A program made the translations under genes and the position numbers. Positions 395 through 17,797 of a stretch of 64,000 bases of DNA are shown one piece after another. The first letter of the stretch is position 1. Each line of letters opens with the position of its first letter. The DNA comes from Martelella sp. HB161492 (lineage in GTDB: Bacteria > Pseudomonadota > Alphaproteobacteria > Rhizobiales > Rhizobiaceae). The stretch is from NCBI RefSeq assembly GCF_013184775.1, contig NZ_JAATVV010000003.1, forward strand, positions 186,001-250,000, in the 5' to 3' direction. The notes beneath the pieces were generated by a model. It was given only the letters and a program-made list of their open reading frames with translations, was not told the origin of the DNA and made no database searches.

Positions 395-1906
395 GTGATT
401 GAACTGAAAAATGTGACAGTGGACTTCGGCGGTGCCAGCCCGGCACTCGCCGATGTTTCACTTCGACTGGGTGAGGGCGCACGCCATCTCGTCTGCGGCG
501 CAGCGGGCAGCGGCAAGTCGACACTTGCCCAGACACTGGCCGGCATGATTCCGAAACTGATCACGCCGTCCGGCTTCAGCGGCGAGGTGATCTTTTCCGG
601 TGCGGCGGAAGGGGAGGATCCCTTCAGGGCGATCGGCGTCGTGATCCAGAATGTCGAGGACCAGCTCTGGGACCTGAGTGTCGAGGATCTCATTGCCTTT
701 CCCCTTGAAAACCGAGGCCTGCCAAGACCTGACATCCGTGCAAGGGTCGCAGATCTGATCAGGGAATTCGGGCTTGAAGCCCTGAAGGGACGGCGTGTTC
801 TCAGCCTTTCGGGCGGCGAACGGCGCATGGTGGCGATTGCCGCGGCCCTTGCCGGCGGACCTGAATTCCTGGTGCTGGACGAGCCGACCACCGGCCTTGA
901 TCCGGCCGCGCGCATCAGGCTTGTCGAAATGCTGGCGCGACGGCGCGACGAGACGCTTGTCGTCGTCGAGCAGGATCCGGCAGCGGTTGCCGGTCTTGTC
1001 GAAACGGTGAGCCTTTTGTCTTCGGGCGCGCTCTCGCCGGCCATGCCGCTTGCGGCGGTTTTTGCCGAGGACCGGCTGTGGATCGATGCGGGCATTCTGC
1101 CGCCGCAGCGCAAGCCGTCTCTGCCGCGCAGCATTGAGGCAGGCGAAACAGTGCTGGCCGTGAACGGGCTTGAAACCGCGCTTTCGCGCAGCAATGGCAC
1201 ACCGGTCCTGGAGAATGTCAGTTTTGCACTGGCCGAAGGCGAAGTGGTCGGGCTGATCGGCAAGAACGGTGCCGGCAAGACGACGCTGTTCCAGTCGATT
1301 CTCGGTCTTGCTGCCGTCAAGGCCGGGTCGATCGCCATTGCCGGCGAGGATGCCGGCCGCTGGACGGTTGCCCGGCGTGCCCGCTCCGTTGCCTATCTGC
1401 CGCAGAACATGCGGCGCGTCCTGTTCAATATGAGCGTTCTGGAAGAGGTTCTCTTTGCGGTGACCGGCGGCGGCAAACGCAATGGAGACGCTGAGGAGAA
1501 GGCCCGCGCGGCGCTTGAGAAATACGGCCTTTCCGGTCATGCCGAGGCCAATCCCTTCGCGCTGTCGTCGCGCCAGCAGGCCCTTCTGGGGCTTGCCTGT
1601 GCCGATGCCTCGGGTGCCCGGATTGCCATTCTTGACGAGCCGCTGCTGGCCCGCGATATCGCCGGCCGCGCGATGCTGGACCGGTTTATCGAGACGATGC
1701 TGGCATCGGGACGGGCGATCCTTCTGATCTCGCACGATCTTGAACTGGTCGACGATGTGACATCGCGGGTGCTTGTTCTCAGTGATGGCGTCATTGCCTG
1801 TGATCGCCCGACTGCGGCGATATGGACGGATGATGCCTTTGCCGCGCTCGGCTGGCCGGGGCCGCGTGGTAGCGTTGATGCGGAGGTCGCCGATGCGCAT
1901 TCATGA
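395..1906 (+). CDS. ECF transporter ATPase, two fused ATP-binding domains (EcfA1A2-like)
   Basis: The 503 residues contain two ABC ATPase domains that power an ECF importer with the S and T components on either side. Domain 1 has Walker A at 35-43 (GAAGSGKST), signature LSGGE at 138-142 and Walker B FLVLDEP at 158-164, but the switch position reads VEQD (192-194) instead of a histidine. Domain 2 has Walker A at 289-297 (GKNGAGKTT), a degenerate signature LSSRQ (390-394), Walker B ending LDEP (412-416) and an intact switch His447. The two defects fall in the same composite ATP site, so one site should be canonical and one weak, as in heterodimeric ABC ATPases. The fused layout recalls YkoD-type ECF ATPases. 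It overlaps the T-component gene by 14 bp, which indicates one operon. Confidence 0.9.
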   Translation: MIELKNVTVDFGGASPALADVSLRLGEGARHLVCGAAGSGKSTLAQTLAGMIPKLITPSGFSGEVIFSGAAEGEDPFRAIGVVIQNVEDQLWDLSVEDLIAFPLENRGLPRPDIRARVADLIREFGLEALKGRRVLSLSGGERRMVAIAAALAGGPEFLVLDEPTTGLDPAARIRLVEMLARRRDETLVVVEQDPAAVAGLVETVSLLSSGALSPAMPLAAVFAEDRLWIDAGILPPQRKPSLPRSIEAGETVLAVNGLETALSRSNGTPVLENVSFALAEGEVVGLIGKNGAGKTTLFQSILGLAAVKAGSIAIAGEDAGRWTVARRARSVAYLPQNMRRVLFNMSVLEEVLFAVTGGGKRNGDAEEKARAALEKYGLSGHAEANPFALSSRQQALLGLACADASGARIAILDEPLLARDIAGRAMLDRFIETMLASGRAILLISHDLELVDDVTSRVLVLSDGVIACDRPTAAIWTDDAFAALGWPGPRGSVDAEVADAHS

Positions 1907-2567
1907 TGTCAATTTCTTCGTCAAGCTTCTGGCGGCTCTGTTGCTGTCGGTTGCCGCATGGTTTGCAACGGACTGGCGCTACGGCGTTCCGCTGGCGTTT
2001 GCCACACTTGTTGTTCTGCGGCTCGTGCGCGTACCGGGCTTGAGATCCTATCTCAAGGGGGCGGTTCTGCTGGTGCTTCTGGTTGAAGCGAGCTGGATCC
2101 TGAACCTGCTTGTGCAGGGGCACACGCCGCTGCAATCGCTCGCCATTGCCACGGGCATGGCGGCGCGGCTGCTGACGACGACGGCGGCCTTCTTCTTCGT
2201 CATGGAGACGAGTTCGCCGGGCTCCATTCTGGCCGCCGCCAGTGCGGCCCGGTTGCCGCCGCTGGCAACGCTGGTGCTCTCGCTCACCTTCGGCATCATC
2301 CCGATGCTGCGTGACGATTTCGAGCGGATTGCCGATGCCCAGCGTGCGCGCGGCATGGAAATCGATGATGTCGGCTTTTTCACGCGGCTCAGGTTTGCGC
2401 TGGCGCGTGGCGTTCCGCTTCTGGTACAGGCGGTGCGCATGGCCCATTCGATTTCGCTGTCGCTCGCCATTTACGGTTTCTCGACCAGTCACAAGCGCAC
2501 GACCTGGCGTGAGGTCGGCTTTTATGTCGAGAACCAGCTCAAATCCGAGAAAGGAAACAGATCATGA
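1893..2567 (+). CDS. ECF transporter transmembrane (T) component
   Basis: This 224-residue protein has several hydrophobic segments in the first 130 residues and the EcfT-type cytoplasmic part after them. ADAQRARGME near residue 150 matches the A-R-G coupling motif that contacts the ATPase in T components. The frame is open further upstream, but the ATG at 1893 is chosen because GGAGG lies 7-11 bases before it and the hydrophobic N-terminus begins there; an in-frame ATG at 1878 is the alternative. The start lies inside the ATPase gene and the stop overlaps the next start (ATGA), so translation is probably coupled along the operon. Confidence 0.85.
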   Translation: MRIHDVNFFVKLLAALLLSVAAWFATDWRYGVPLAFATLVVLRLVRVPGLRSYLKGAVLLVLLVEASWILNLLVQGHTPLQSLAIATGMAARLLTTTAAFFFVMETSSPGSILAAASAARLPPLATLVLSLTFGIIPMLRDDFERIADAQRARGMEIDDVGFFTRLRFALARGVPLLVQAVRMAHSISLSLAIYGFSTSHKRTTWREVGFYVENQLKSEKGNRS

Positions 2568-3193
2568 CCGAGATGCCCCACGTTACCGACCAGACTTTCA
2601 CGGTGGATGTCGCGGGAATGGCGGTGGAGCTGCCGATCGTTGCAATCAAGCCGGATTTTGCGATCTCGCTGATGATGGTGATCGATCTCGGGGTGAAGTT
2701 CGGCGAACATGCCGGCCGCAAGCTGGCGGAGAAGCTGGCGCCGATGAAACCCGATATCGTCGTCGGTGCGGCGACGCTCGGCATTCCCGTGGCGATAGAA
2801 GTTACACGCGCACTCGGCCTTGACGACTATGTCATTTTGCAGAAGTCGCCCAAGATCCATCTCGGTGATGCGCTGGTCCAGACGATCTCCTCCATCACCT
2901 CCAAGGGTGAGCAGCGCCTGATGCTCGATCGCCGTTCGCTGCCGCTTCTGAAGGGCAAGCGCGTCGTTGTGGTTGATGATGTGGTTGCGTCCGGTTCGTC
3001 CATCAAGGGATCGGTTGATCTGGTGCGCAAGGCCGGTGGCGAGGTTGTCGGCATCGGTGTGATCCTGACGGAGGCCCGTGACTGGCTTGAAACGCTGGGC
3101 GAGGATGCAAAACTCGTCGCAGGTCTTGCCCATATTCCGCAATTTACCAGCAATGGCGGGCCGTTCGAACCGATCGCCGACACCTATCTCTGA
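2564..3193 (+). CDS. Phosphoribosyltransferase (adenine phosphoribosyltransferase-like)
   Basis: The 209-residue protein is a type I phosphoribosyltransferase. The PRPP-binding motif VVVVDDVVASGSS is at residues 134-146, preceded by GAATLGIPVA (68-77), as in Apt-like enzymes. Such enzymes join a free base to PRPP to give a nucleotide, PPi being released. The start overlaps the T-component stop (ATGA) and has AAGGAA 8 bases upstream. Fusion of transport and salvage in one operon suggests that the ECF importer brings in a base that this enzyme traps as a nucleotide (inference). The true base may not be adenine: the N-terminal 60 residues, which normally help set base specificity, look unlike housekeeping Apt. 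The stop is followed by the convergent GntR gene after 3 bp. Confidence 0.8.
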   Translation: MTEMPHVTDQTFTVDVAGMAVELPIVAIKPDFAISLMMVIDLGVKFGEHAGRKLAEKLAPMKPDIVVGAATLGIPVAIEVTRALGLDDYVILQKSPKIHLGDALVQTISSITSKGEQRLMLDRRSLPLLKGKRVVVVDDVVASGSSIKGSVDLVRKAGGEVVGIGVILTEARDWLETLGEDAKLVAGLAHIPQFTSNGGPFEPIADTYL

Positions 3194-3196
3194 GAC

Positions 3197-3874
3197 CTAT
3201 TTCGGTTCCAGCATGGTGGAAACCGACTGACCGGTGTGGAGCAGGTGGACGCGCCAGATCGCTGCTGCGCGCGCGGCGTCCCGCGCCCGCAGCGCTGACA
3301 TCAGCTGTTCATGCTCGTCGACGGCCTCATGCCAGCGATCCGCATTGAGAATCGCCATATAGCGCCCGCGCGCCGCACGCACCAGAAGCTTCGCATGGGT
3401 GGCTATCAGCGCCTCATTGGCTGAAAGCGTCATCACCCGGTCGTGAATGCGGCTGTTGATGTCGAAATAGGGTTCCTTGTCGCCGGCGCGAAAATAGCTG
3501 CACATCCGATCATGCATGGCCTGCAGGCCATCCATCTCCCGGTCGCTGATCCGGGCGGCGGTGATCTCGGCGGCCAGTGCCTCAAGGCTTGCTATCACCT
3601 GAAACAGTTCCGTCGCCTCGCGCTGCGTATAGGGTAGAACCCGGGCACCGCGATTGGGCAGAAGTTCGATCAGGTGTTCCTCGGCCAGCACCTTCAGCGC
3701 TTCGCGCATCGGTGTCTGCGACACGCCGAACTCGGCGGCGAGCTCATTGACGGGAATGCGGGCATTGGGGGCGAGGTCGCCCTTGATGATCATGTTCCGT
3801 AGATGTTCGGCGACCGTGTCATAGAGCGAACGACGATTGATGGCGAGCGGCGACAGCGGCTTTTCACTGGTCAT
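3197..3874 (-). CDS. GntR family transcriptional regulator, FCD subgroup (1)
   Basis: The 225-residue protein has an N-terminal winged helix-turn-helix (about residues 12-75, with ELAAEFGVSQTPMREAL matching the GntR recognition region) and a C-terminal FCD ligand domain. Acidic and histidine residues typical of the FCD metal site are visible (the RIHDRVM region, HEQL, and a late WRVHLLHT). FCD regulators usually repress a neighbouring catabolic operon until a carboxylic-acid ligand binds. The start overlaps the second GntR gene by 4 bp, so the two are co-transcribed, pointing away from the amidase/ABC operon at 4.9-13.4 kb, which is their likely target (inference). Confidence 0.9.
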   Translation of the reverse strand: MTSEKPLSPLAINRRSLYDTVAEHLRNMIIKGDLAPNARIPVNELAAEFGVSQTPMREALKVLAEEHLIELLPNRGARVLPYTQREATELFQVIASLEALAAEITAARISDREMDGLQAMHDRMCSYFRAGDKEPYFDINSRIHDRVMTLSANEALIATHAKLLVRAARGRYMAILNADRWHEAVDEHEQLMSALRARDAARAAAIWRVHLLHTGQSVSTMLEPK

Positions 3875-4614
3875 GAGGTGCTTCCCTTGCGCCCGCGCGA
3901 TGCGGCCTTGCCGGTCTCTGTTCTGGTCTCGGCCGCCGCCACGGCTTTTGCCGTATTGCGGATATGGGCCAGCATGGCGCGGCCGGCAGCCTCTGCATTG
4001 CGGTTCCTGATGGCCAGCATCAGCGCATCATGTTCATCAAGGGAAGCCTGCCAGCGTCCCTCCGATGTCAGTGTGCTGCTGCGCCCATAGCGCGCTTTCT
4101 GGGTGATGGCGGCATGCATGGCCATAAGCTCCGCCGAGGCGCCAGCCCCGACAATCAGGCTGTGGACTTTCTGGTTGGCGCGGAAATAGCCGCGGCTGTC
4201 ACCTTTCTGAAAGGCCCTGTGCATTGCTTCATGCGTCGCTTCCAGCGCATTGGCGGTCGCGGCGTTCATGGTTTCGACGGCCCGTTCGGTGGCGTGGCGC
4301 TCAAGTGCGGCGATGACTTCAAACATGTCGAAAATCTCAGCGGCGCTGTAGTGGCGCACGCGGGCGCCGCGGCCGGGCAGCAATTCCAGCAGACCTTCCG
4401 AGGCCAGAAGCTTGATGGCCTCGCGCAGGGGGGTGCGCGAAACATTCAGGGCCTCGGAAAGCGCAACCTCGTTCAGCCGCTCCTGCGCATCAACATCACC
4501 GGAGAGCACCATACGCCGCAGCCGCTCGGCGACCTGTTCATGCAGGCCGGCGCGCTTGACCAGGCGGCGGGCAGGTGGGCTTTGTTCCCGGATGTCGGCG
4601 TCGTCTTCAGTCAT
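3871..4614 (-). CDS. GntR family transcriptional regulator, FCD subgroup (2)
   Basis: This 247-residue paralogue of the adjacent regulator has its winged helix at about residues 20-90 (ALSEALNVSRTPLREAI) and an FCD domain after it. It is longer at both ends, with a charged N-terminus and a basic, Thr/Arg-rich C-terminal tail. It is the first gene of a two-gene minus-strand unit, 260 bp from the divergent solute-binding protein gene. Two similar FCD regulators in tandem could work as a pair, bind two ligands, or be a recent duplication; they share the HTH pattern but are clearly diverged in sequence. Confidence 0.9.
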   Translation of the reverse strand: MTEDDADIREQSPPARRLVKRAGLHEQVAERLRRMVLSGDVDAQERLNEVALSEALNVSRTPLREAIKLLASEGLLELLPGRGARVRHYSAAEIFDMFEVIAALERHATERAVETMNAATANALEATHEAMHRAFQKGDSRGYFRANQKVHSLIVGAGASAELMAMHAAITQKARYGRSSTLTSEGRWQASLDEHDALMLAIRNRNAEAAGRAMLAHIRNTAKAVAAAETRTETGKAASRGRKGSTS

Positions 4615-4874
4615 TTGCAGCTTTCCAGATCGAATAGCGGGTCATCACCATATTGGCTGAAGCCTGCCGAATCGTCTTTGTCTGAATGTAATATAGCCAT
4701 TTTACTGCCTGTTGCGACATCATACGATGAAAAATTAAGCATCATCAATTTTTGATATATAATTCAGTTTATACAAAAAAATAATAAAAACAATGCATTG
4801 TAAAACTGGCATGCTTGTTGCTTTGAATTTGCTAGCCCAAAGAAGGCCTGCAAAATGTTCAGATGGAGAGAAGA
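4615..4874. promoter_or_regulatory. Divergent regulatory region between gntR pair and ABC/amidase operon
   Basis: This 260-bp region is much more AT-rich than its surroundings from about 4680 to 4860, as expected for divergent promoters. Symmetric elements that could be operators are ATCAATTTTTGAT (4744-4756, perfect 5-bp arms) and CAATGCATTG (4791-4800, perfect). Immediately after the latter, TTGTAAAACTG (4798-4808) is one base from the FadR/GntR consensus TNGTNNNACNA. No exact start sites can be set by eye. The assignment of these sites to the two GntR proteins is inference. Confidence 0.45.
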
Positions 4875-6509
4875 ATGACATTTTATGCTGAAATGTGTGC
4901 TGCCCGTAAGCGAAGCCTGCCAGTGGCGGCGGCCCTTGCCCTGTCGCTGATGCCGCTGATGGCGTCGAGCGCGCTTGCTGCCACGCCAAAGGATGTTCTG
5001 GTCGAGGTGGGCGAGCAGGGACCGAACGCGCTTGATCCGATGGCGCCTGCCGCCAACGAATACAGCCAGATGGTTGCCTGGCAGATTTATGACCGTCTCG
5101 TCACCCACGGCACCAAGACCTTGCCCGATGGCAAGGTGGTCTACGATGCCACCAAGATCGAGCCGGAACTGGCGACCAGCTGGGAAATTTCCGACGACAA
5201 GAAAACGCTGATTTTCCATCTGCGCGAAGATGCGACCTTCCATGACGGCACGCCGGTCACGGCCGACGATGTGAAATGGTCCTTCGACCGTGCGATTGCC
5301 GCCGGCGGCTTCCCGGCGACCCAGATGGCGGCCGGTTCCTTTACCGATCCGAACCAGTTCTCCGTCGTTGACAAATACACCTTCAAGATCACGCTTCCCG
5401 CGCCCAACAAGATGTCGCTGCCTGATCTCGTCGTGCCGGTTCCCAACATCGTCAACAAGACGCTGGCGCTGAAGCATGCCACGGCGGATGATCCCTGGGC
5501 GCTGGAATGGACCCGCAACAATGATGCCGGTGGTGGCCCGTTCAAGGTCGGCAGCTGGAAGTCCGGCGATCAGATCGTTTTCGACCGGTTCGATGACTGG
5601 AAGTCCGGCCCGCTGCCGGCAATGAAGAAGGTTGTCTATCGCCAGGTTGCCTCGGCCGGCACGCGCCGTGCGCTTCTGGAAAAGGGTGATGTCGATATCT
5701 CCATCGGCCTGCCGCCGAAGGATTATGCCGAGCTTGCCGAAGCCGGTGATGTCAACGTCGTCGGTACGCTGATCCAGAACGAGACCTTCCATGTCGACAT
5801 GAATGTCAACATGAAGCCCTTCGACGATGTGCGCGTCCGCCAGGCGATTGCCTATGCCCTGCCTTATGACGCGATCATGAGCCAGGCACTCTATCACCGT
5901 GCCGAGCCGCTCTACGGCGCTGATCCGTCCAAGCCCTATCCGCCGAAATGGCCGGTTGCCTCGCCCTATGATACGGATCTCGACAAGGCGAAGGAGCTGC
6001 TGAAGGAAGCCGGTTACGAGAATGGTTTTTCCACTGAGCTCTATTACGACATGAGCCAGGCAACCATTCAGGAGCCGATGGCGCTGCTGATCCAGGAACA
6101 GCTGAAGAAGCTCGATATCAATGTGACGCTGGAAAAGGTGCCGGGCTCCGACTGGTTCACCAAGATGGGCTCACGCTCCATGCCGATGGATATCAACTAT
6201 TTCTACGGCTGGCTCGATTACCCGGAATATTTCTTCTTCTGGACATTTGATGGCGAGAACAACACGGTGTTCAACACCTCCGGCTACAACAATCCCGAGC
6301 TGGACAAGGAGATCACCGAAGCCACGCAGATGGAGCCGGGTGCTGACTATGACGCACTGATCTCCAAGATGATCGGCACGGTCATGACCGATGTGCCGCG
6401 CGCGCCGGTCGCCCATCTCTATTCTGACATTGCCATGCAGAAGAATGTGAAGGGCTATGTCTACTGGTTCGACACCCATGTCGATTATCGTGCCATCACC
6501 AAGGATTGA
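4875..6509 (+). CDS. Oligopeptide/dipeptide-type ABC transporter solute-binding protein (SBP family 5)
   Basis: This periplasmic receptor of 544 residues begins with a type I signal peptide (basic start, hydrophobic run, cleavage near SALAA-TPK) and has no lipobox cysteine. The body shows the family-5 pattern: an N-terminal LDPMAP segment, a WEISDDKKTLIFHLREDA strand region, FHDGTPVTADDVKWSFDR, and a late DVRVRQAIAYAL motif. The ATG at 4875 is preferred over the one at 4863 because GGAGAG sits 5 bases upstream of it. It opens a plus-strand operon of the complete importer plus three enzymes. Family-5 proteins also carry non-peptide amides, sugars and amino-acid conjugates, so 'peptide' is a family label only. 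A stable hairpin follows the stop. Confidence 0.92.
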   Translation: MTFYAEMCAARKRSLPVAAALALSLMPLMASSALAATPKDVLVEVGEQGPNALDPMAPAANEYSQMVAWQIYDRLVTHGTKTLPDGKVVYDATKIEPELATSWEISDDKKTLIFHLREDATFHDGTPVTADDVKWSFDRAIAAGGFPATQMAAGSFTDPNQFSVVDKYTFKITLPAPNKMSLPDLVVPVPNIVNKTLALKHATADDPWALEWTRNNDAGGGPFKVGSWKSGDQIVFDRFDDWKSGPLPAMKKVVYRQVASAGTRRALLEKGDVDISIGLPPKDYAELAEAGDVNVVGTLIQNETFHVDMNVNMKPFDDVRVRQAIAYALPYDAIMSQALYHRAEPLYGADPSKPYPPKWPVASPYDTDLDKAKELLKEAGYENGFSTELYYDMSQATIQEPMALLIQEQLKKLDINVTLEKVPGSDWFTKMGSRSMPMDINYFYGWLDYPEYFFFWTFDGENNTVFNTSGYNNPELDKEITEATQMEPGADYDALISKMIGTVMTDVPRAPVAHLYSDIAMQKNVKGYVYWFDTHVDYRAITKD

Positions 6510-6522
6510 TCTTTGAACCGAC

Positions 6523-6550
6523 GGCCGGCCTTCCAGCGTGAAGGCCGGCC
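6523..6550 (+). terminator. GC-rich hairpin between SBP and permease genes
   Basis: The 10-bp perfect arms GGCCGGCCTT (6523-6532) and AAGGCCGGCC (6541-6550) enclose an 8-base loop. No T-run follows, so it probably slows 3' decay or partly attenuates transcription rather than ending the operon. Confidence 0.6.
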
Positions 6551-6591
6551 TCACCGTTGCTTTCATGCGGCAATCGATGGGAAACCAAGCG

Positions 6592-7614
6592 ATGAAAACC
6601 TTCACGATCATCGGGAAACGTGTGGTCTCCGCCCTGCCGAGCATTGTCGGCGTGGTGATCGTCACCTTCCTGCTGGCCCGGGCGCTTCCTGGCGATCCGG
6701 CCGCCTATTATGCCGGCAGCTCGGCGACCGCCGAGACTGTTGCCGATATCCGCGCAAGGCTCGGTCTTGATCAGCCGCTGATCCTTCAGTTCGGCGATTA
6801 TGTCCGTGACATCGCCAGCGGTAATCTTGGCCTGTCGCTTTCGAGCGGTCAGCCGGTTCTGGCGGATCTTGCGAGCCGTCTTCCTGCCTCGCTGGAACTG
6901 ACCTTCGCCGCGCTCATCTTTGCACTTCTCATCGGTCTGCCGCTCGGGCTGCTGGCCGCCGTGCGCCAGGGTTCGATCTTTGACCATGCCTGCCGCATTC
7001 TGGTGACGGTCGGCGCTGCCTTCCCGACCTTCTTCGTCGCGCTGGTGCTGGTCTATATCTTTTACTACCGGCTCGATATCGTGCCGCAGCCGCTCGGGCG
7101 GCTGGATGAGATCTATTTTTCGACGCCGCCGACCGTGACCGGTTTCCTGCTGATCGACACGCTTCTGGCCGGTGACACGGATGCCTTTATCGGCGCTTTC
7201 CGGCAGATCCTGCTGCCGGCGATCTCGCTGGGTCTCTTTGCGCTGGCGCCGATTGCCCGGATCACCCGCGCCTCCATGCTGGCCGCCCTTTCCAGCGACT
7301 ATTGCCGCACAGCGCGGGCCATGGGGCTTTCATCGGGCAAGGTGCTGATCACCTATGCGCTGCGCAACGCGATGCTTTCGATCGTCAACGTGCTCGGCAT
7401 GGTGTTTTCCTTCCTGCTTGGCGCCAATGTTCTGGTCGAACAGGTCTTCGCCTGGCCCGGTATCGGCGCCTATGCCGTCAATGCCGTCATCGCTTCCGAT
7501 TATGCCGCCGTTCAGGGCTTCGTGCTGATGATGGCGATCCTCTATGTCCTTCTCAACCTCTCCGTCGACATCATCTCGACGGTCATCGATCCGAGGGTGC
7601 GTTACGATGGCTGA
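6592..7614 (+). CDS. Peptide-type ABC transporter permease (DppB-like)
   Basis: The 340-residue inner-membrane protein has six predicted membrane segments (first at about residues 9-30) and the DppB-type signature RALPGDPAAYY after the first segment. The EAA-type loop that contacts the ATPase lies in the stretch CRTARAMGLSSGKVLITYAL (about residues 235-254). The start at 6592 (MKTFTII) is chosen because the in-frame ATG at 6538 lies within the intergenic hairpin; 6577 is another option. It pairs with the next permease to form the translocation channel. Its stop overlaps the next gene by 8 bp. Confidence 0.9.
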   Translation: MKTFTIIGKRVVSALPSIVGVVIVTFLLARALPGDPAAYYAGSSATAETVADIRARLGLDQPLILQFGDYVRDIASGNLGLSLSSGQPVLADLASRLPASLELTFAALIFALLIGLPLGLLAAVRQGSIFDHACRILVTVGAAFPTFFVALVLVYIFYYRLDIVPQPLGRLDEIYFSTPPTVTGFLLIDTLLAGDTDAFIGAFRQILLPAISLGLFALAPIARITRASMLAALSSDYCRTARAMGLSSGKVLITYALRNAMLSIVNVLGMVFSFLLGANVLVEQVFAWPGIGAYAVNAVIASDYAAVQGFVLMMAILYVLLNLSVDIISTVIDPRVRYDG

Positions 7615-8473
7615 TACGACTTTCTCCGCCGCCCGCAGACGCGACGATATCATCCACGCCCTGACCGCCAACAAGGTCACCTTCATGGCCGGGCTGCTGC
7701 TGGTCTTTCTGGTTGTCGTTGCGATGATCGGTCCCTTGGTCGCCCCCTATGATCCGCTGATGAGCGATGCAACGGCGAGCCTTCAGCCGCCTTCACTGTC
7801 CCACCTCTTTGGCACCGATGCGCTCGGCCGCGACATTTTCAGCCGGGTGCTGGTGGCAACACGGCTTGATCTCGGCATGGCGGCTGGCGCGGTTCTCGCG
7901 TCCTTCGTCATCGGTACGGCGCTCGGCGCCATTGCCGGCATGCTGGGCGGGATTGTCGATCTCATCATCGAGCGGCTGATGGATACGATCATGGCCTTTC
8001 CCCTGTTCGTGCTTGCCATGGGCATTGTCGCAGCGCTCGGCAACAACGTCACCAATATCGTCATCGCCACGGCGATCATCAATCTGCCCTTCTATGCCCG
8101 CTTTGCCCGCGCGGAGGTCAATGTCCGGCGCGAGCTTTCCTTTGTCGAAGCCGCCACGGCCGGCGGCAATGGCCGCTGGCGCACGCTCTTCGTTCACATC
8201 GTGCCGAATATCTTGCCGACCATGGTGGTGCAGGCCTCGCTCAATCTCGGCTGGGCGATCCTCAATGCCGCCGGGCTTTCCTTCATCGGTCTTGGCGTCC
8301 GGCCGCCAACGCCGGAATGGGGCATCATGGTTTCCGAGGGCGCGGCCTACATCTTCTCCGGCGAGTGGTGGACCTTCGCGTTTCCGGGCGCGGCCCTCGT
8401 GCTTGCCGTCTTCTGTTTCAACCTTGTCGGCGACGGATTGCGCGACATCATCGATCCGAAGGGGCACGCATGA
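7607..8473 (+). CDS. Peptide-type ABC transporter permease (DppC-like)
   Basis: This 288-residue DppC-type permease has a first membrane segment at about residues 25-47, followed by YDPLMSD and the motif HLFGTDALGRDIFSRV, which is typical of the second permease of family-5 importers. The EAA-like loop is in the VEAATAGGNGRWRTLFVHIV segment. The start at 7607 lies inside the first permease gene, with GAGGGTG upstream. The stop overlaps the following ATPase start (ATGA). Confidence 0.92.
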   Translation: MADTTFSAARRRDDIIHALTANKVTFMAGLLLVFLVVVAMIGPLVAPYDPLMSDATASLQPPSLSHLFGTDALGRDIFSRVLVATRLDLGMAAGAVLASFVIGTALGAIAGMLGGIVDLIIERLMDTIMAFPLFVLAMGIVAALGNNVTNIVIATAIINLPFYARFARAEVNVRRELSFVEAATAGGNGRWRTLFVHIVPNILPTMVVQASLNLGWAILNAAGLSFIGLGVRPPTPEWGIMVSEGAAYIFSGEWWTFAFPGAALVLAVFCFNLVGDGLRDIIDPKGHA

Positions 8474-9441
8474 AAAACGCTCTTCTGACCGTCGAGGGAC
8501 TGAGCCTCGATTTCAAGACCCGCCACGGACTGGTGAAGGTGCTGGAAGATATCAGCTTCGCCGTTGAAAAGGGCGAGATGGTCGGCATTGTCGGCGAAAG
8601 CGGCTCCGGCAAATCGGTCCTGTCCTATGCGATGATGGGGCTTCTCGGTGATGCCGCCGATATCCGTACGCACCGCATGGAATATGCCGGGGTGGATCTC
8701 ACCGGATCAGGGGCGAAGGCCCTGCGCGGTCGCGAATTGTCGATGATCTTTCAGAGCCCGCGAACCGCGCTGAACCCGATCCGCAAGATCGGTCACCAGA
8801 TCGGCGACGTTCTCGCCCGTCACGGACCGGTGCCGCGCGGCCAATTGAAGAAAAGGGCGATCGAGGCCTTAGCGCGGGTGCGCATTCCTGATCCCGAACG
8901 GCGCTATCATGCCTATCCGTTTGAGCTGTCGGGCGGCATGTGCCAGCGGGTGATGATTGCCATGGCGCTGGCCTCGTCACCGGGGCTTCTGATTGCCGAT
9001 GAGCCGACCACCGGCCTTGATGTGACGACCCAGGCGATTGTCGTCGACCTCATCCGCGCGCTCGTCGATGAAACGCGCATGGGGGCAATCCTGATCACCC
9101 ATGATCTGGCGCTTGCCGGGGAATATTGCGACCGCATCCTCGTCATGCATGCCGGTCATCTGGTCGAGGTTGCGCCAACGGCGGAGCTCTTTTCCAGCGC
9201 CCGCCATCCCTATACGCGCCGGCTCTTTTCCGCGACCCCCCAGAGTGCGGCCACTCTGGACGATCTGGCCGCCATTCCCGGCAATCTGCCGGATCTGTCG
9301 GGGCCGCTTCTGCCCTGCCGTTTTGCCGGGCGCTGTCCCCATCATCAGGGCGATTGCGATGCCTTGCCATTGCCGCCGCTGGATCCAGCCGCGCCGCATG
9401 GTGTGCGCTGTCACCACCCGGAGAACGCTCATGCTGCTTGA
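8470..9441 (+). CDS. Peptide-type ABC transporter ATPase (DppD-like)
   Basis: This 323-residue cytoplasmic ATPase has Walker A GESGSGKS (about residues 40-47), a Q-loop region (MIFQSPRTALNP), signature LSGGMCQRVMIAMALA and Walker B LLIADEPTTGLD. The C-terminal oligopeptide/dipeptide-ATPase extension carries the cysteine-rich LPCRFAGRCPHH segment, which in this family can bind an iron-sulfur cluster. It energises import together with the second ATPase and overlaps it by 11 bp. Confidence 0.93.
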   Translation: MKNALLTVEGLSLDFKTRHGLVKVLEDISFAVEKGEMVGIVGESGSGKSVLSYAMMGLLGDAADIRTHRMEYAGVDLTGSGAKALRGRELSMIFQSPRTALNPIRKIGHQIGDVLARHGPVPRGQLKKRAIEALARVRIPDPERRYHAYPFELSGGMCQRVMIAMALASSPGLLIADEPTTGLDVTTQAIVVDLIRALVDETRMGAILITHDLALAGEYCDRILVMHAGHLVEVAPTAELFSSARHPYTRRLFSATPQSAATLDDLAAIPGNLPDLSGPLLPCRFAGRCPHHQGDCDALPLPPLDPAAPHGVRCHHPENAHAA

Positions 9442-10408
9442 TGCACGATCCATTGCCAAATTCTTTCCCGTTCGCAATGCCGGGCGCAAGAGTAGACTTC
9501 ACGCCGTCGATGGCATCGATCTCGCCATCGATAACGGCGAAAGCGTCGGCCTTGTCGGTGAAAGCGGATGCGGCAAGTCAACCCTTGCGCGGCTGATTGC
9601 CCGGCTGATTGACGCCGATGGCGGCCGTCTCGATTTCTCCGGCCATGATCTGGCGGCGCTTTCCGGCCGCAGCTTTGCCACCACGCCGGAGCGGGCCGAA
9701 ATTCAGATCGTGTTTCAGGACCCGAATGAAAGCCTCAATCCTTCCTTCACGGTATTGCGGGCCGTGGCCGATCCGATCCGCCGGCTCATGCCGGGGACAA
9801 GCCGCAGCCAGGCGACACAGCTTGCGCTTGAAGCGCTTCACGCTGTCGGCCTGCCGCGTGAACTGGCCGGACGTTTCCCACATCAGCTTTCCGGCGGGCA
9901 GAAGGCCCGCGTCGGCATTGCCCGCGCCATTGCGGTCAAACCGAAATTGCTGATCCTCGATGAACCGACCTCGGCACTGGATGTCTCGGTGCAGGCGGTG
10001 ATCCTCAAGCTTCTGGCCAGGCTCAAGGCCGAGCGCGGCATGAGCTATCTTTTTGTCTCGCACGATCTCAACGTCGTGCGGCTGATCTGCGACCGCATCG
10101 TCGTCATGTATCTTGGCAAGGTCGTGGAAGAGGGGCCGGCGGAGGCGGTTTTTTCGCATCCGCGTCACCCCTATACCCAGGCGCTGATCGGCGCGATTCC
10201 CGATCCGGCGCGGCGTGGCACCACGGTGGCGCGGCTCGAAAAACCGGCCTCCAGCCCGATCGATCCCGACCCGAACCGCTGCCGCTTTGCCGGTCGCTGC
10301 CCCCATGAAATTCCCCGTTGCAGCCGTGAAATGCCTTCGCTTGCCGAAACCGGCTCGCGCCATTTTGCTGCCTGCCACCTTCTTGACCAACCGGATACCG
10401 CCTCATGA
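9431..10408 (+). CDS. Peptide-type ABC transporter ATPase (DppF-like)
   Basis: The second ATPase (325 residues) has Walker A GESGCGKSTLAR, the Q-loop segment IVFQDPNESLNPSFTV, signature LSGGQKARVGIARA, Walker B LLILDEPTSALD and the C-terminal RCRFAGRCPHEIPRC segment of the family. The start at 9431 (MLLDARSIAK) is inside the previous gene; the longer open frame upstream is in another reading frame of DppD. Its last codons overlap the racemase-like gene by 4 bp, so transporter and enzymes form a single transcription unit. Confidence 0.93.
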   Translation: MLLDARSIAKFFPVRNAGRKSRLHAVDGIDLAIDNGESVGLVGESGCGKSTLARLIARLIDADGGRLDFSGHDLAALSGRSFATTPERAEIQIVFQDPNESLNPSFTVLRAVADPIRRLMPGTSRSQATQLALEALHAVGLPRELAGRFPHQLSGGQKARVGIARAIAVKPKLLILDEPTSALDVSVQAVILKLLARLKAERGMSYLFVSHDLNVVRLICDRIVVMYLGKVVEEGPAEAVFSHPRHPYTQALIGAIPDPARRGTTVARLEKPASSPIDPDPNRCRFAGRCPHEIPRCSREMPSLAETGSRHFAACHLLDQPDTAS

Positions 10409-11178
10409 CCCGCATATTGCTCTTGAACCCCAACACTTCGGCAAGCGTGACCGAGCGCATGATGGTGGTGGCGCGAAAATCCGCCACGCCCGGAACCGAG
10501 GTGATCGGCCATACGGTGACCCGTGGCGTTCCCTATATCGCCACCCGGGCGGAAGCCGTGATCGGCGGTGCCGTGGCGCTTGAGGCACTGGCCGAGCGGG
10601 CCGGTGAATTCGATGCCGCGATCATAGCCGCATTCGGCGATCCCGGCCTGTCCGGCGCGCGTGAACTGCTTGACGTGCCGGTTATCGGCCTGGCGGAGGC
10701 GGGGCTGCTGACAGCCTGCATGTTGGGCCACCGTTTTTCGGTTGTCTCTTTTTCAACGGCGCTCGGCCCCTGGTACCGCGAATGCGTCACCGCGCACGGG
10801 CTTGCCTCGCGGCTCGCCAGCATCCGGCTTCTCGATGGTCCCTTCCGCTCGATTGCCGAAGTGCCGGAGGAAAAGGCCGATCTTCTGGTGCGCCTCGCGC
10901 AAAAGGCGGTTGAAGAAGATGGAGCCGATGTCATCGTGCTGGCCGGCGCGCCACTGGCAGGTCTTGCCGGCGCGGTCAAACATCTGGTGCCGGTGCCGGT
11001 GATCGAATGCACGGCGGCGGCGGTCCGTCAGGCGGAACTGCTGGTCGGGCTCGATCCGGCCAAGGCCCGGGCGGGCTCCTTTGCCCGGCCCGAGCCGAAA
11101 ACCTCGATCGGCCTGCCGCCGCCGCTCGCCCGGCTGCTGGCAACGGCAGGCGACGATATGAGCACAGTCTCGAACTGA
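10405..11178 (+). CDS. Asp/Glu/hydantoin racemase superfamily protein lacking both catalytic cysteines
   Basis: The 257-residue protein has the hydantoin/allantoin racemase fold signature (start RILLLNPNTSASVTERM, middle FGDPGLSGARELLDVPVIGLAEA, end IECTAAAVRQAELL). Hydantoin racemases use two cysteines, in I-A-C-F-x-D-P-G and V-L-G-C-A-G, at about residues 76 and 181. Here those positions are Ala76 (IIAAFGDPG) and Gly181 (VLAGAPLAG). Two-base proton exchange by thiols is therefore not possible, and the protein is either a diverged enzyme with other catalytic groups or a binding protein. It lies between importer and amidase with 4-bp and 11-bp spacings, so it very probably acts in the same pathway. 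The ligand is unknown. Confidence 0.75.
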   Translation: MTRILLLNPNTSASVTERMMVVARKSATPGTEVIGHTVTRGVPYIATRAEAVIGGAVALEALAERAGEFDAAIIAAFGDPGLSGARELLDVPVIGLAEAGLLTACMLGHRFSVVSFSTALGPWYRECVTAHGLASRLASIRLLDGPFRSIAEVPEEKADLLVRLAQKAVEEDGADVIVLAGAPLAGLAGAVKHLVPVPVIECTAAAVRQAELLVGLDPAKARAGSFARPEPKTSIGLPPPLARLLATAGDDMSTVSN

Positions 11179-11189
11179 ACGGAATTGCC

Positions 11190-12632
11190 ATGAATATTGA
11201 GACCTATAGCGCGATGACAGCCGGCGAGATCGCCGAGAAAGTGCGTTCCGGCGGCTTAAGCGCTGTCGAAATCGCCAGAGCTGCCCTTGCCGCCGCCGAG
11301 AAGATGGAACCCGAAATCCACGCCTTTGCCACGCTGGATGCCCGTGGCATGCTGGCTGCAGCCGACGTGGTGGATGCGCAGATCGCAGCCGGAAAAGACC
11401 CCGGTCCGCTGGCCGGCGTGCCGGTGGCGATCAAGGACCTGGTGATGACGAAGGGGCTGAAAACCACATTCGGTTCGGCTCTCTATGCCGATTTCGTGCC
11501 GGAGGATGACGATATCGTCGTCGAGCGGCTGCGTGCTGCCGGTGCGCTTGTTATCGGCAAGTCGAATGCTTCTGAATTCGGGTTCGGTGCGCATGGCTGC
11601 AACCGGCTTTTTCCGGTGACACGCAATCCGTGGGATCTTTCCCGCACGCCGGGTGGCTCGAGCGCCGGTTCTGCCGCCGCCCTTGCTGCCGGCGTTGTGC
11701 CGATTGCCATTGGCAGTGATGGTGGCGGATCGATCCGCATTCCGTCCGCCTTTTGCGGCCTTTACGGCATCAAGGCCTCGATGGGCCGGGTGCCGGTCTG
11801 GCCGGGCTGCCGCGACGAGACCCTGCCCGGTGCATCTGGCTGGGAATCGATCGAACATATCGGTCCCATGGCCCGCAATGTCGATGACATGGTGCTGATG
11901 CTCTCGGTGCTGGCAGGTCCTGATCCGCGCGATCGCTGGTCGCTGCCTGAAGGCGATGTTGATTATCTGGCTGCGATCCGCGCGCCGCTGCCGCAGGGCC
12001 TGCGGGTCGCCTACTGGCCGCAATGGGGCGATTGCCCGGTCGAGCCGGGCGTGGAGGCGATCTGCGCGGCGGCGATTGCCCGCTTTGCCGAAGACACAGG
12101 CGCGACTGTCAGCTTTGGCGCGCCGCCGGCGATTGACCTTGATACGGCTTTCCAGGCGATCATCGCGCTTGAGACGGATCTTACCGGTCTCAGGCGGATC
12201 GCCAAAGACCGGGAAGATGCGCTGACCGGACCGGTCCGGTCCTTCCTTGATACGCAGCTGCCGCTGGAAGCGGCCACGGACGCAATCACCACCCGCAAGG
12301 CGTTTTCCAATGCTGTCGCAAGGGTGATGGCTGATTTTGATCTGATCATCACGCCAACCGTACCGATCACCCCCTTTGCCGCAGAGGCGACGGGGCCAGA
12401 GACGATCAACCGCATCGCTGTCGGGCCGGATGGCTGGAGCCCCTATACTTCACCCTTCAACCTGACCGGTCAGCCGGCGGCAAGCGTGCCATGCGGCTAT
12501 GTCGACGGGCGCTATCCGGTCGGCCTGCAGATTGTCGGCCCGCATCTGGGGGACGGGCTGGTGCTGACGGCGGCGGCGGCGTTCGCCCGGCTGTTTGAAG
12601 GCGAGATCAGGGAGGCACCGGTTCATGTCTGA
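11190..12632 (+). CDS. Amidase (amidase signature family)
   Basis: This 480-residue hydrolase cleaves a carboxamide or related bond. The Ser-cisSer-Lys triad is complete: Lys82 (VAIKDL), Ser157 (GGSSAGS) and Ser181 (GSDGGGSIRIP). The 24-residue spacing between the two serines matches FAAH-type enzymes. Length is normal for the family. The start at 11190 is taken from the family N-terminus (AGEIAEKVRSGGLSAVEIAR) with GAACGGAA upstream; the longer open frame is the racemase gene in another frame. The substrate is not predictable from sequence, but the linked importer and decarboxylase-like gene point to a small imported amide (inference). It overlaps the next gene by 8 bp. Confidence 0.9.
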   Translation: MNIETYSAMTAGEIAEKVRSGGLSAVEIARAALAAAEKMEPEIHAFATLDARGMLAAADVVDAQIAAGKDPGPLAGVPVAIKDLVMTKGLKTTFGSALYADFVPEDDDIVVERLRAAGALVIGKSNASEFGFGAHGCNRLFPVTRNPWDLSRTPGGSSAGSAAALAAGVVPIAIGSDGGGSIRIPSAFCGLYGIKASMGRVPVWPGCRDETLPGASGWESIEHIGPMARNVDDMVLMLSVLAGPDPRDRWSLPEGDVDYLAAIRAPLPQGLRVAYWPQWGDCPVEPGVEAICAAAIARFAEDTGATVSFGAPPAIDLDTAFQAIIALETDLTGLRRIAKDREDALTGPVRSFLDTQLPLEAATDAITTRKAFSNAVARVMADFDLIITPTVPITPFAAEATGPETINRIAVGPDGWSPYTSPFNLTGQPAASVPCGYVDGRYPVGLQIVGPHLGDGLVLTAAAAFARLFEGEIREAPVHV

Positions 12633-13374
12633 TGCAACGGCGAACAAGCGGATGATCCGCATCGGCATGCTGACCCCGTCTTCCAACACGGTGCTGGAGC
12701 CGGTGACGACAGCAATGCTGTCGGGTCTCGATGACGTCAGTGTTCATTTTTCCCGTTTCCGCGTTACCGCGATCGGGCTCGATGATGCAGCCCTTGCCCA
12801 GTTCGATGACCGGGCGATGCTGGAAGCGGCCGGGTTGCTGGCCGACGCCAAGGTTGATGTGATTGCCTGGAACGGCACCAGCGCCGGTTGGCTCGGGCTC
12901 GACAAGGACAGACGGCTCTGCGAGAAAATCACGGCGGAGACCGGCATTGCCGCCAGCACTTCGGTGCTGTCGCTGTTTGATATCATGCGCGCGCGCGGCG
13001 AGAGCCGGATCGGTCTTGTTACCCCCTATACGGCCGATGTGCAGGAAAAGATCATTGCCCGTTTCGCCGACGAGGGCGTGGACGTGGCCGCCGAGGCTCA
13101 TTTCGGCCTGCGTGACAATTTCAGCTTTGCCACGGTTTCGCGGGAGCAGCTTGCGGCGGCGGTGGAGGCGGTGGGGCAATCCGCGCCGCAGGCCATCAGC
13201 ATTCTCTGCACCAATCTGGCCGGCGCTCCGCTTGTCGACGGGCTGGAAAAGCGTTTCTCCATTCCCATCCATGACAGTATCGCCACCACGGTCTGGGGCG
13301 CGCTTGTGGCGGCGGGGCAGCCGCCATCGCGGGTGGCGGGCTATGGGGCGCTGTTTGCCGAGGGCGCCGCCTGA
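12625..13374 (+). CDS. Arylmalonate decarboxylase/maleate isomerase-like protein (Asp/Glu racemase superfamily)
   Basis: The 249-residue protein starts RIGMLTPSSNTVLEP, typical of the maleate isomerase/arylmalonate decarboxylase (AMDase) branch. At the first catalytic position it has NGTSAGW (G84-T85-S86), like the GTS of AMDase, instead of the cysteine of maleate isomerases and racemases. At the second it keeps Cys195 (ILCTNLAG). A tyrosine in VTPYTADVQ (Tyr135) and the GYGALF end also match AMDase. One cysteine only favours decarboxylation of a malonate-type acid, or another one-cysteine reaction, over racemization. GGGAGG lies about 10 bases before the chosen ATG. It is the last gene of the ABC/amidase operon. 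Confidence 0.75.
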   Translation: MSDATANKRMIRIGMLTPSSNTVLEPVTTAMLSGLDDVSVHFSRFRVTAIGLDDAALAQFDDRAMLEAAGLLADAKVDVIAWNGTSAGWLGLDKDRRLCEKITAETGIAASTSVLSLFDIMRARGESRIGLVTPYTADVQEKIIARFADEGVDVAAEAHFGLRDNFSFATVSREQLAAAVEAVGQSAPQAISILCTNLAGAPLVDGLEKRFSIPIHDSIATTVWGALVAAGQPPSRVAGYGALFAEGAA

Positions 13375-13464: not shown

Positions 13465-13588
13465 TCGGCAATTTGCCTTGGAACGCACTGCGACAGGGAT
13501 GGCCACAGAAAAGGCAGACGGATATGATGCCGTAACGAACTGCTGGTTTTGTCAGAGCGGCCCGGCCGCCGCCGTTGGAGGACGTTTG

Positions 13589-14422
13589 TTGAGCGCCCAT
13601 CATTCCGCCCGTCCTGTGAAGGCCATCACTCTGGCAGGACTGGCCAATCGTCTGCGCCATCTCGATTGCGCCATCGATCTGGCGGCAAAGCTTGAACGCC
13701 CGGTTGAGCTGATCTGGCCGATCGATCGCGATCTGAACTGTCCTTTCGACAGACTGTTCTGCGTGCCGGATACTGTGGTGCGCATTGTCGAACAGTCGCA
13801 TGGCAACTATCCTTTCCATGACAAGATATTGCGCAGGATCGGTTTCCCCGGCCGTCATTATCTGACGTCGGCGCAGTTCGGTGAGCTGCAGGTGGGCAAA
13901 AGGGTGCTAGCCTTCGACCATGCCACGGTGGCGAAGCACCTACCGGCTTCTGATGCGCTGATTTTCCGCAGTGGAATGCGTAGCTATCTGCCAGAAAAAC
14001 CCTATGCCTGGTTCAGCCCTACGGCAAAGGTCCTCGATCGTGTGGCGACCATGACCGCGGGCTATTCGGCGAAAATGCTGGGCGTTCACGTGCGCCGGAC
14101 CGATCATGTCCATGCCATCCGGCACAGTCCGCTGGAGGCTTTCATCGCCGAAGTCGACCGCAAGATTGCCAAGGAAGGCTTTACCGGCCTGTTCCTGGCG
14201 ACCGATGATGACGCCGCGGAGCAGGCGATCCTTGGGCGTTATCCGGCCGCGGTGATCTACCGCAAAAGATCGCGTGACCGGAACGATCCGGCGGCCATCG
14301 AAGATGCCCTTGTCGATTTCATCTGTCTGTCGCGAACGGCTGCCATTCTCGGCAGTGCAGGCAGCTCCTTTTCGGAGGAAGCCGCGACCCTTGGCGCCGT
14401 CACACTGGAGATCGCCAGCTGA
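13589..14422 (+). CDS. Fucosyltransferase-like protein (GT23/NodZ-like fold), TTG start
   Basis: The 277-residue protein shows GLANRLRHLDCAIDLA near its start, as in the nucleotide-binding N-terminus of NodZ-like proteins, and GVHVRRTDH at about residues 165-173, close to the HxRRTDK motif of alpha-1,6-fucosyltransferases. A later TDDDAAEQAI and a SAGSSFSEEA segment fit the GDP-fucose-type acceptor half. The frame is open far upstream, but only the TTG at 13589 has a good ribosome site (GGAGGA, 13577-13582) and the homologous region starts just after it. Later ATGs would remove the conserved N-terminus. It is about 40 residues shorter than NodZ. The acceptor is unknown; lipopolysaccharide or surface glycan is possible. 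It stands alone between two operons, with a convergent gene 9 bp away. Confidence 0.65.
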   Translation: MSAHHSARPVKAITLAGLANRLRHLDCAIDLAAKLERPVELIWPIDRDLNCPFDRLFCVPDTVVRIVEQSHGNYPFHDKILRRIGFPGRHYLTSAQFGELQVGKRVLAFDHATVAKHLPASDALIFRSGMRSYLPEKPYAWFSPTAKVLDRVATMTAGYSAKMLGVHVRRTDHVHAIRHSPLEAFIAEVDRKIAKEGFTGLFLATDDDAAEQAILGRYPAAVIYRKRSRDRNDPAAIEDALVDFICLSRTAAILGSAGSSFSEEAATLGAVTLEIAS

Positions 14423-14431
14423 AACCTGACC

Positions 14432-15532
14432 TCAGGCGACCGCCTGAGCGGCCGAAAGCCTAAGACCGTTCGCGCCGAAGAGATGAATATCGGCGGTATC
14501 GAAGGTCAGCCGGATCGACCCGCCGGATTTCAGCGGATGCTGGCCGGAAAGAACGGCGAGCAGCTGTTCACCGCCTTTCGTCGTCGCATAGATGACCGTT
14601 TCTGCGCCCAGCGCTTCGACCAGGGTGATCGAGACCTCGATTCCTGTTTCGTTATCGGCGGCGATCCGGATCTGCTGCGGGCGAACGCCGACGGTCAGCT
14701 TGTCGCCGCTGCTGACGGCAAGACTATCGGTGCTGATCTCGCGGTCTTCGGCACCCAGAAGATTGATGCTTGCGCGGCCGTCCTGCACCGGGCCGAGTGT
14801 CGCCGGCAGGAAATTCATTGCTGGCGACCCGATGAAACCGGCGACGAAAAGATTGGCCGGAGTGTTGTAGAGATCCAGCGGTGTGCCGATCTGTTCGACC
14901 TTGCCCTGACGCAGGACGACGATCCGGTCGGCTAGCGTCATGGCCTCGACCTGATCATGGGTCACATAGATCATCGTTGTCTTCAACCGGTCGTGCAGTG
15001 CTGAAAGCTCGGCACGCATGTGGACGCGCAGTTCTGCATCGAGATTGGAGAGCGGTTCATCGAACAGGAAGACATCCGGGTGGCGCACAATGGCGCGGCC
15101 GATGGCGACGCGCTGTCGCTGGCCACCGGACAGTGCTTTCGGCTTGCGTTCCAGCAGGGCATCGAGTTCCAGCATGCGCGCCGCCTCGGCAACGCGAGCC
15201 TCGATCTCCTGCTTGCCCATGCCGGCAAAGCGCAGTGCGAATCCCATGTTTTCCCGCACGCTCATATGCGGGTAGAGCGCATAGGTCTGGAACACCATGG
15301 CAATCCCGCGCTTGGCCGGATCTTCATCGGTCATGTCCTGGCCGCCAATCGAAAGCTTGCCGGCGGTAATATCCTCAAGGCCAGCAATCATCCGCAGCAA
15401 TGTCGATTTTCCGCAGCCGGATGGTCCGACGAAGACGACGAACTCGCCGGAGCGGACATTAAGATCAACGCCCTTGATGACCTCGAGATTTCCGAATTTC
15501 TTGTAGATTGCGTTCAGCGAAACATCAGCCAT
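14432..15532 (-). CDS. Sugar ABC transporter ATPase (UgpC/MsmK-like)
   Basis: This 366-residue ATPase of the CUT1 type has Walker A GPSGCGKST (about residues 37-45), a Q-loop in MVFQTYALYPHMSV, signature LSGGQRQRVAIGRA and Walker B VFLFDEPLSNLD. A switch histidine lies in YVTHDQVEAM, and a C-terminal TOBE/regulatory domain begins after about residue 235. It is the last gene of the minus-strand sugar operon, 11 bp after the glycosidase gene, and should energise the two permeases. Confidence 0.95.
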   Translation of the reverse strand: MADVSLNAIYKKFGNLEVIKGVDLNVRSGEFVVFVGPSGCGKSTLLRMIAGLEDITAGKLSIGGQDMTDEDPAKRGIAMVFQTYALYPHMSVRENMGFALRFAGMGKQEIEARVAEAARMLELDALLERKPKALSGGQRQRVAIGRAIVRHPDVFLFDEPLSNLDAELRVHMRAELSALHDRLKTTMIYVTHDQVEAMTLADRIVVLRQGKVEQIGTPLDLYNTPANLFVAGFIGSPAMNFLPATLGPVQDGRASINLLGAEDREISTDSLAVSSGDKLTVGVRPQQIRIAADNETGIEVSITLVEALGAETVIYATTKGGEQLLAVLSGQHPLKSGGSIRLTFDTADIHLFGANGLRLSAAQAVA

Positions 15533-15543
15533 GAAACTCTGCC

Positions 15544-17787: not shown

Positions 17788-17797
17788 GGTGTTGTTC

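Follow-up and report, generated by a model that had tools for sequence, protein, structure and literature searches.

What does a bacterium take up and degrade with an operon that joins a peptide-type ABC importer to a racemase-like protein, an amidase and a decarboxylase-like protein? The question is raised by a locus of Martelella sp. HB161492 (GCF_013184775.1, contig NZ_JAATVV010000003.1, positions 186,001 to 250,000), and this whole stretch of 64,000 nucleotides is hereafter called the window. The original prediction held that a generic small amide is imported and hydrolyzed. With a probability of about one in two, the operon is instead a nitrogen-controlled, GntR-regulated system that would import and degrade a carboxylated cyclic ureide of the hydantoin/dihydropyrimidine class, or an open-chain amide derived from it. 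The observations are gene linkage, protein families, a promoter sequence match and the loss of catalytic cysteines; from these we infer the substrate class, the reactions and the regulation.

Organization of the Operon

The plus-strand unit (4875–13374) is formed by eight genes in one run, coding for a substrate-binding protein (SBP), two permeases, two ATPases, the racemase-like Rac, an amidase and the AMDase-like Amd. The features of the locus are as follows:

3197–3874, minus strand: GntR/FCD regulator 1, closest of the compared regulators to that of a Defluviimonas Rac-amidase-HydA cluster (47%)
3871–4614, minus strand: GntR/FCD regulator 2, with a 50–52% homologue divergent from the operon in loci L077, L078 and L081
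4807–4822, plus strand: sigma-54 promoter match TGGCAT-N5-TTGCT, from a pattern search
4875–6509, plus strand: SBP, family 5 (Pfam SBP_bac_5)
6592–7614, plus strand: permease, DppB/OppB type (NCBIfam/Pfam family match)
7607–8473, plus strand: permease, DppC/NikC type (NCBIfam/Pfam family match)
8470–9441, plus strand: ATPase, DppD type (family match; start taken from the sequence)
9431–10408, plus strand: ATPase, DppF type (family match; start taken from the sequence)
10405–11178, plus strand: Rac, allantoin/hydantoin-racemase fold, with Ala76 and Gly181 at the catalytic-cysteine positions and clade-specific Tyr44, Arg48 and Trp123
11190–12632, plus strand: amidase-signature enzyme, with Lys82 and the serine motifs GGSS and GGGSIR
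12625–13374, plus strand: Amd, AMDase/maleate-isomerase fold, with AMDase-like Gly84 and Cys195 and a maleate-isomerase-like PSSN motif

Neighboring genes of the unit overlap by 4–11 bases or are separated by a gap of 11, except for the 82 bases between the SBP gene and the first permease gene; both ATPase starts were shifted by eye to the nearest ATG, and the SBP start codon was likewise picked by eye. The Pfam families in the unit are SBP_bac_5, BPD_transp_1 (twice), ABC_tran/oligo_HPY (twice), Asp_Glu_race, Amidase and Amdase. The original prediction was right about one divergent unit but counted nine genes where there are eight, as in its own list. Its two tandem minus-strand GntR/FCD genes are confirmed by the family search, although both lie outside the range, starting at 4615, that it gave for the system. 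NCBIfam provides no curated name for the operon enzymes: Rac has zero matches, Amd scores under both of its cut-offs, and the amidase does not reach the curated cut-off of any family shown (the best 25 of 26), a result that neither establishes nor excludes its identity as a general amidase.

Among solved proteins, the closest relative of the SBP is AgaA, an agropinic acid binder, followed by a peptide-type binding protein, YliB and an agrocinopine binder. This likeness to opine and peptide binders is as strong as that to anything else and counts against a ureide as substrate; it could point to opine-type or peptide-amide catabolism. However, family-5 SBPs bind many kinds of ligands, and the eight genes include no opine oxidase or peptidase, which makes such a catabolism very improbable.

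Upstream, an ECF-type double ATPase, a CbiQ-like EcfT and an adenine-phosphoribosyltransferase-like gene (below cut-off) converge on the GntR pair (window 395–3193), a group that was not seen adjoining the operon in L077, L078 or L081. Downstream (13500–18622), inspection by eye suggests an ORF, maybe of glycosyltransferase type, and then minus-strand sugar-ABC-ATPase-like, glycosidase-like and permease-like genes.

Conservation of the Operon and Its Putative Nitrogen Control

A search for conserved gene order, which the original prediction had proposed, finds the complete eight-gene operon, in the same order and with the eight proteins 58–75% identical, in Rhizobium tropici CIAT 899, Rhizobium sp. 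11515TR and Rhizobium sp. BK376, where one GntR gene faces away from it, versus two in the window. With this recurrence, the arrangement is not due to chance. Moreover, Root708 has the last four genes and an Ancalomicrobiaceae MAG the last five, in both cases up to the contig end, so that amidase, Rac and Amd accompany one another in each of the six observed copies of this operon type, the window included. None of 60 other relatives searched has Rac and Amd (at least 44% identity) side by side, and one of them, G046, has both on different contigs. The distribution of the operon among relatives is sporadic.

In BK376, genes for HydA (a D-hydantoinase/dihydropyrimidinase) and DUF3830 flank the regulator of the operon. 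Neither the eight genes of the window operon nor four of the five other copies include HydA; contig ends truncate two of these four. The genome of the window does encode a HydA-DUF3830 pair on contig C1, each protein being 74% identical to its BK376 counterpart, and another HydA on contig C7 (77% identical to that of M. nodulans). The ring-opening step is therefore available elsewhere in this genome, and a HydA encoded there may serve the operon. In the surroundings of the C1 gene (L170, 9481–19410), HydA is accompanied by DUF3830, a DHDPS-family enzyme, a family-3 SBP and a 2Fe-2S/Pyr_redox/DAO fusion, a neighborhood for which no explanation was found in the hydroxyproline literature. R. tropici (L077) has, downstream of the operon, a set that resembles this neighborhood but lacks HydA.

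The sigma-54 −24/−12 consensus is TGGCAY-N5-TTGCW. This pattern has one perfect match in the 64 kb of the window, at 4807–4822 and 52 bases upstream of the SBP start, versus 0.17 expected, with at least one match in 15 of 100 shuffled sequences; taken by itself, the lone match is modest evidence. Likewise, the 80 loci of the genome_contigs collection (the best 80 of at least 400) contain 15 matches in 1.43 Mb, approximately three times the simulated background rate, so that single matches away from an operon start mean little; R. tropici has three further ones elsewhere in the 24.7 kb of L077. However, the match is found at the same place in all four readable operon upstream regions (window, L077, L078 and L081), and this recurrence in three relatives makes nitrogen control through sigma-54 likely, the site being known as a sequence match. 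A common regulator palindrome was also sought upstream of the operon: only the 10-mer GATATATAAT and its complement are common to the four regions, with no clear operator; in the window, the 10-mer is located at 4754–4763, upstream of the sigma-54 site.

A Racemase-Like Clade without Catalytic Cysteines

Rac has the fold and the Pfam family (PF01177) of allantoin/hydantoin racemases, and its model (pLDDT 93.5) superimposes on allantoin racemases with TM 0.85–0.94. In structural alignment, Rac is 34–36% identical to the allantoin/hydantoin racemases KpAllR (3QVJ) and that of P. fluorescens (5LG5), but the catalytic Cys79 and Cys184 of the Klebsiella enzyme are replaced by Ala76 and Gly181. This replacement is found in 92 of 92 rows of the clade, in contrast to Cys/Cys in all 24 comparison rows; although the rows had been assigned by these very positions, they form separate supported clades in the tree of 121 rows, where the 92 cysteine-less GAPL rows stand on one side of a branch (100/95, with a bootstrap not fully settled). 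Pseudomonadota, Actinomycetota, Thermodesulfobacteriota and a Marinimicrobia MAG are included in the clade, several members being MAG contigs. Its own residues are Tyr44 (92/92), Arg48 (91/92), Trp123 (92/92) and Pro183-Leu184 (92/92), positions at which other residues are the most common among the Cys-type rows (24). The original prediction called this protein cysteine-free, which holds for the two catalytic cysteines and not literally, since Cys105, a residue outside the catalytic positions of the family, is present and is kept in 87 of 92 rows.

The loss of both catalytic cysteines, together with the clade's own Tyr44, Arg48 and Trp123, indicates that Rac is probably no ordinary racemase. 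Rac could still be a racemase or epimerase that uses other residues, such as Tyr44 or Cys105, whatever the pathway in which it works, and both its fold and the frequent retention of Cys105 would agree with it. Nevertheless, Cys105 is not strictly kept, the cysteine pair is missing throughout the clade, and a double Cys-to-Ser mutant of OpaE retains 0.3% or less, according to the excerpted text of PMC12661438. A racemase of this kind is therefore unlikely.

A second cysteine-less racemase branch has four rows (L048, L057, L080:12758–13495 and L127:16224–17093) and GGGPLA in place of GAPLAG; in L080 its member adjoins a first-branch Rac, and in L127 it lies approximately 5.5 kb from one.

The Decarboxylase-Like Protein and the Amidase

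The model of Amd (pLDDT 94.8) matches first maleate isomerase (TM 0.86–0.89) and then AMDase. Among 57 rows, Gly84, Cys195, Tyr135, Arg44 and His41 are invariant, Thr85 is kept in 56 and Ser86 in 55. G74, C188, T75-S76 and Y126 of AMDase correspond to G84, C195, T85-S86 and Y135 of Amd, which bears out the AMDase-like protein of the original prediction; it has the single AMDase-type cysteine. Maleate cis-trans isomerase is the best fold match and shares the PSSN motif, but it has two catalytic cysteines, the first of which is Gly84 in Amd. However, Amd does not qualify as a true AMDase by Table 4 of PMC4996985: G189, V156 and M159 are T196, N165 and F168 in Amd, and the motifs LMGTSLSF and ILLSCGGL are WNGTSAGW and ISILCTNL, in an alignment that starts at residue 65, after the P14-P15, L40, V43 and Y48 of the same table. 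Amd was also rejected as EutA of ectoine utilization (TIGR02990), its best NCBIfam match, as it reaches 86.3 bits against a cut-off of 318, and ectoine genes are not among the eight of the window operon. The single, presumably protonating cysteine and the conserved polar residues suggest that Amd would decarboxylate a dicarboxylate.

Amidase-signature enzymes are recognized by a Lys and two Ser motifs. The window amidase belongs to PF01425 and has Lys82 and both Ser motifs; Malonamidase E2 and other amidase-signature enzymes are its distant relatives.

Linkage of Rac, Amd and HydA across Genomes

Rac, Amd and hydA are found in one neighborhood in plasmid records of Methylobacterium, Defluviimonas, Klebsiella, Paraburkholderia, Diaphorobacter, Salipiger and Arthrobacter, records that were picked from the match lists because both genes matched or the record was annotated. 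The importers in these neighborhoods are of the ABC (two being Tau/SsuA-like sets), TRAP or MFS type; one SBP of a Tau/SsuA-like set was tested and reaches 72 bits against a cut-off of 163.5 for the SsuA family model. TRAP and MFS importers, as well as FCD regulators, fit an organic anion. In plasmid records of Leptolyngbya and Sinorhizobium, Amd is accompanied by an amidase, and none of the genes carries the annotation hydA. The original prediction had accepted that finding the enzyme genes apart from this transporter would speak against it, and the association of Rac and Amd with SsuA/Tau-type ABC, MFS and TRAP importers does so; its single uptake-and-degradation unit holds as regards the conserved gene order and the joint presence of the three enzymes, and is weakened as regards the tie to this importer.

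In the genome_contigs scan, the best 80 of at least 400 Rac relatives were kept, and one of the two search patterns contains AAFGDPG, which biases the set towards the cysteine-less form. Among these loci, HydA occurs in 41/80, Amd in 40/80, an amidase in 40/80, a PuuE-like gene in 19/80 and GntR in 54/80, versus 1/20, 0/20, 2/20, 0/20 and 16/20, respectively, in control loci of Cys-type racemase paralogues. The controls are 20 of the 24 Cys-type paralogue rows, in stretches of approximately 16–20 kb, and leave out L065, L067, the second copy in L114 and L166 of the window's own genome; L166 adjoins a hydantoinase-family gene (ErtD-like, approximately 30% identical to a HydA reference, against a threshold of 45%). 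Fisher tests give p = 8e-5 for HydA, 8e-6 for Amd, 8e-4 for the amidase and 9e-3 for PuuE-like genes, but the rows are not independent, and 23 of the 80 loci are Bradyrhizobium by title, so that these values overstate the case. By the thresholds used, 15 of the 80 loci lack HydA, PuuE-like and Amd genes (eight with an amidase only and seven with none of the four); some of these are short, and L082, L142, L153 and L158 have a partner that misses the length limits. The D-hydantoinase cut-off is passed by two neighboring HydA proteins, by that of BK376 and by two of the window's genome.

Rac and Amd were also searched in 387 genomes of the class, with 6 or 7 first-look candidates scored per genome. 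Excluding the window's genome, Rac is present at E 1e-40 in 19 of 386, Amd in 21 and both in 6, with approximately one expected. At an identity of at least 56%, a cut set after the list was seen, Rac is present in eight genomes, five of which also have Amd (hypergeometric p 1.5e-5). The two genes lie within 10 kb in all five and on different contigs in the sixth co-carrier, and the other three genomes have a PuuE-like gene in place of Amd (L206–L208). Conversely, HydA is found in 11 of 15 Amd-anchored contexts, out of 22 other Amd matches, that is, in all five that were selected because Rac is present as well, and in 6 of the remaining 10. The amidases of other module classes are 29–36% identical to that of the window, so that their steps may differ.

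Within a widespread HydA-Amd-Rac module, the operon is the version with a peptide-type ABC importer. In the open-licence literature, no paper describing this gene set was found; the excerpt of PMC6015842 lists racemase, dihydropyrimidinase-like and polysaccharide-deacetylase genes on one Polaromonas plasmid. Another observation concerns L226 (C23:259600–270000), approximately 10–20 kb past the window end, where a sibling system with peptide-type ABC permease and ATPase genes also includes a two-cysteine racemase, an SDR and an ErtD-like relative of hydantoin-5-propionate amidohydrolase (477 bits, cut-off 600).

The small-amide route of the original prediction would comprise import, hydrolysis by the amidase and decarboxylation of a substituted malonate by Amd, without ring opening, and it would account for the constant company of amidase, Rac and Amd in the six operon copies, only one of which has HydA adjacent, as well as for the distant relationship of the amidase to Malonamidase E2 and other amidase-signature enzymes. 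However, the module as a whole links Rac and Amd to HydA or PuuE-like enzymes, and a D-hydantoinase accompanies Rac at least as often as an amidase does (41 versus 40 of 80). A cyclic ureide or a derivative thus fits better than a generic small amide; the amidase linkage stands, and the route without ring opening seems rather unlikely.

Proposed Pathway and Biological Role

In the proposed pathway for a carboxylated cyclic ureide, the ureide-type compound or its open-chain amide would be taken up through the SBP, and the ring would be opened by a HydA-type enzyme, whose gene adjoins the operon in BK376 and sits on a separate contig in the window's genome. The amidase could then hydrolyze the released amide or ureide, either replacing or following HydA. 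A ring bearing a carboxylate beside its carbonyl would, once opened, yield a malonate-type dicarboxylate, as an AMDase-like enzyme needs, which Amd could decarboxylate; this chemical reasoning, on which the malonate step rests, would explain the pairing of HydA with Amd. Rac may convert a related intermediate; two-cysteine racemization cannot be its chemistry.

Barbiturate-like compounds offer another cyclic substrate: ring opening would give malonic mono-ureide, the amidase would act as a ureidomalonase, and Amd would decarboxylate malonate. Ureidomalonase is an amidase-signature enzyme, and the enzyme set fits this chemistry. Moreover, a cyanuric acid hydrolase that passes its NCBIfam cut-off is encoded in the window's genome (L223, C10:16049–17119), and this enzyme occurs in 2 of the 31 genomes searched, both with a Rac of the cysteine-less clade. 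However, two others of the 31 (G005 and G006) have such a Rac without the hydrolase, the cyanuric acid hydrolase locus has an amidase and a BMP-type ABC importer of its own, and there are zero homologues among the ORFs of loci L068–L220. The route through cyanuric acid hydrolase was rejected on this last result, and a barbiturate-like substrate in general is doubtful, with little probability left to it.

Among known systems, hydantoin utilization (hyu) clusters contain a racemase, a hydantoinase, a carbamoylase and a transporter, and the relative on the Arthrobacter plasmid pZXY21 has a comparable arrangement, with MFS, GntR, Rac, hydA and Amd in a row. In contrast to hyu clusters, the racemase lacks its catalytic cysteines here, Amd and/or an amidase-signature enzyme takes the place of the carbamoylase, and the window operon has no HydA. 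The operon is a variant of hydantoin-type catabolic clusters, and its unusual part is the Rac clade. Tentatively, and with less confidence than the substrate class, this branch of the hydantoin racemases may have a new activity, with a Tyr/Arg/Trp site in place of the two-cysteine machinery; it could work alongside HydA and a hybrid of maleate isomerase and AMDase in an undescribed route for carboxylated cyclic ureides, one that extends over several phyla.

In the public records examined, such genes are annotated as 'aspartate/glutamate racemase family protein', while one whole branch of them is unlikely to use the known racemase mechanism. Through the linkage of HydA, Amd and Rac, these enzymes gain a substrate class and a pathway that can be tested, and a role in nitrogen scavenging is predicted from the sigma-54 site.
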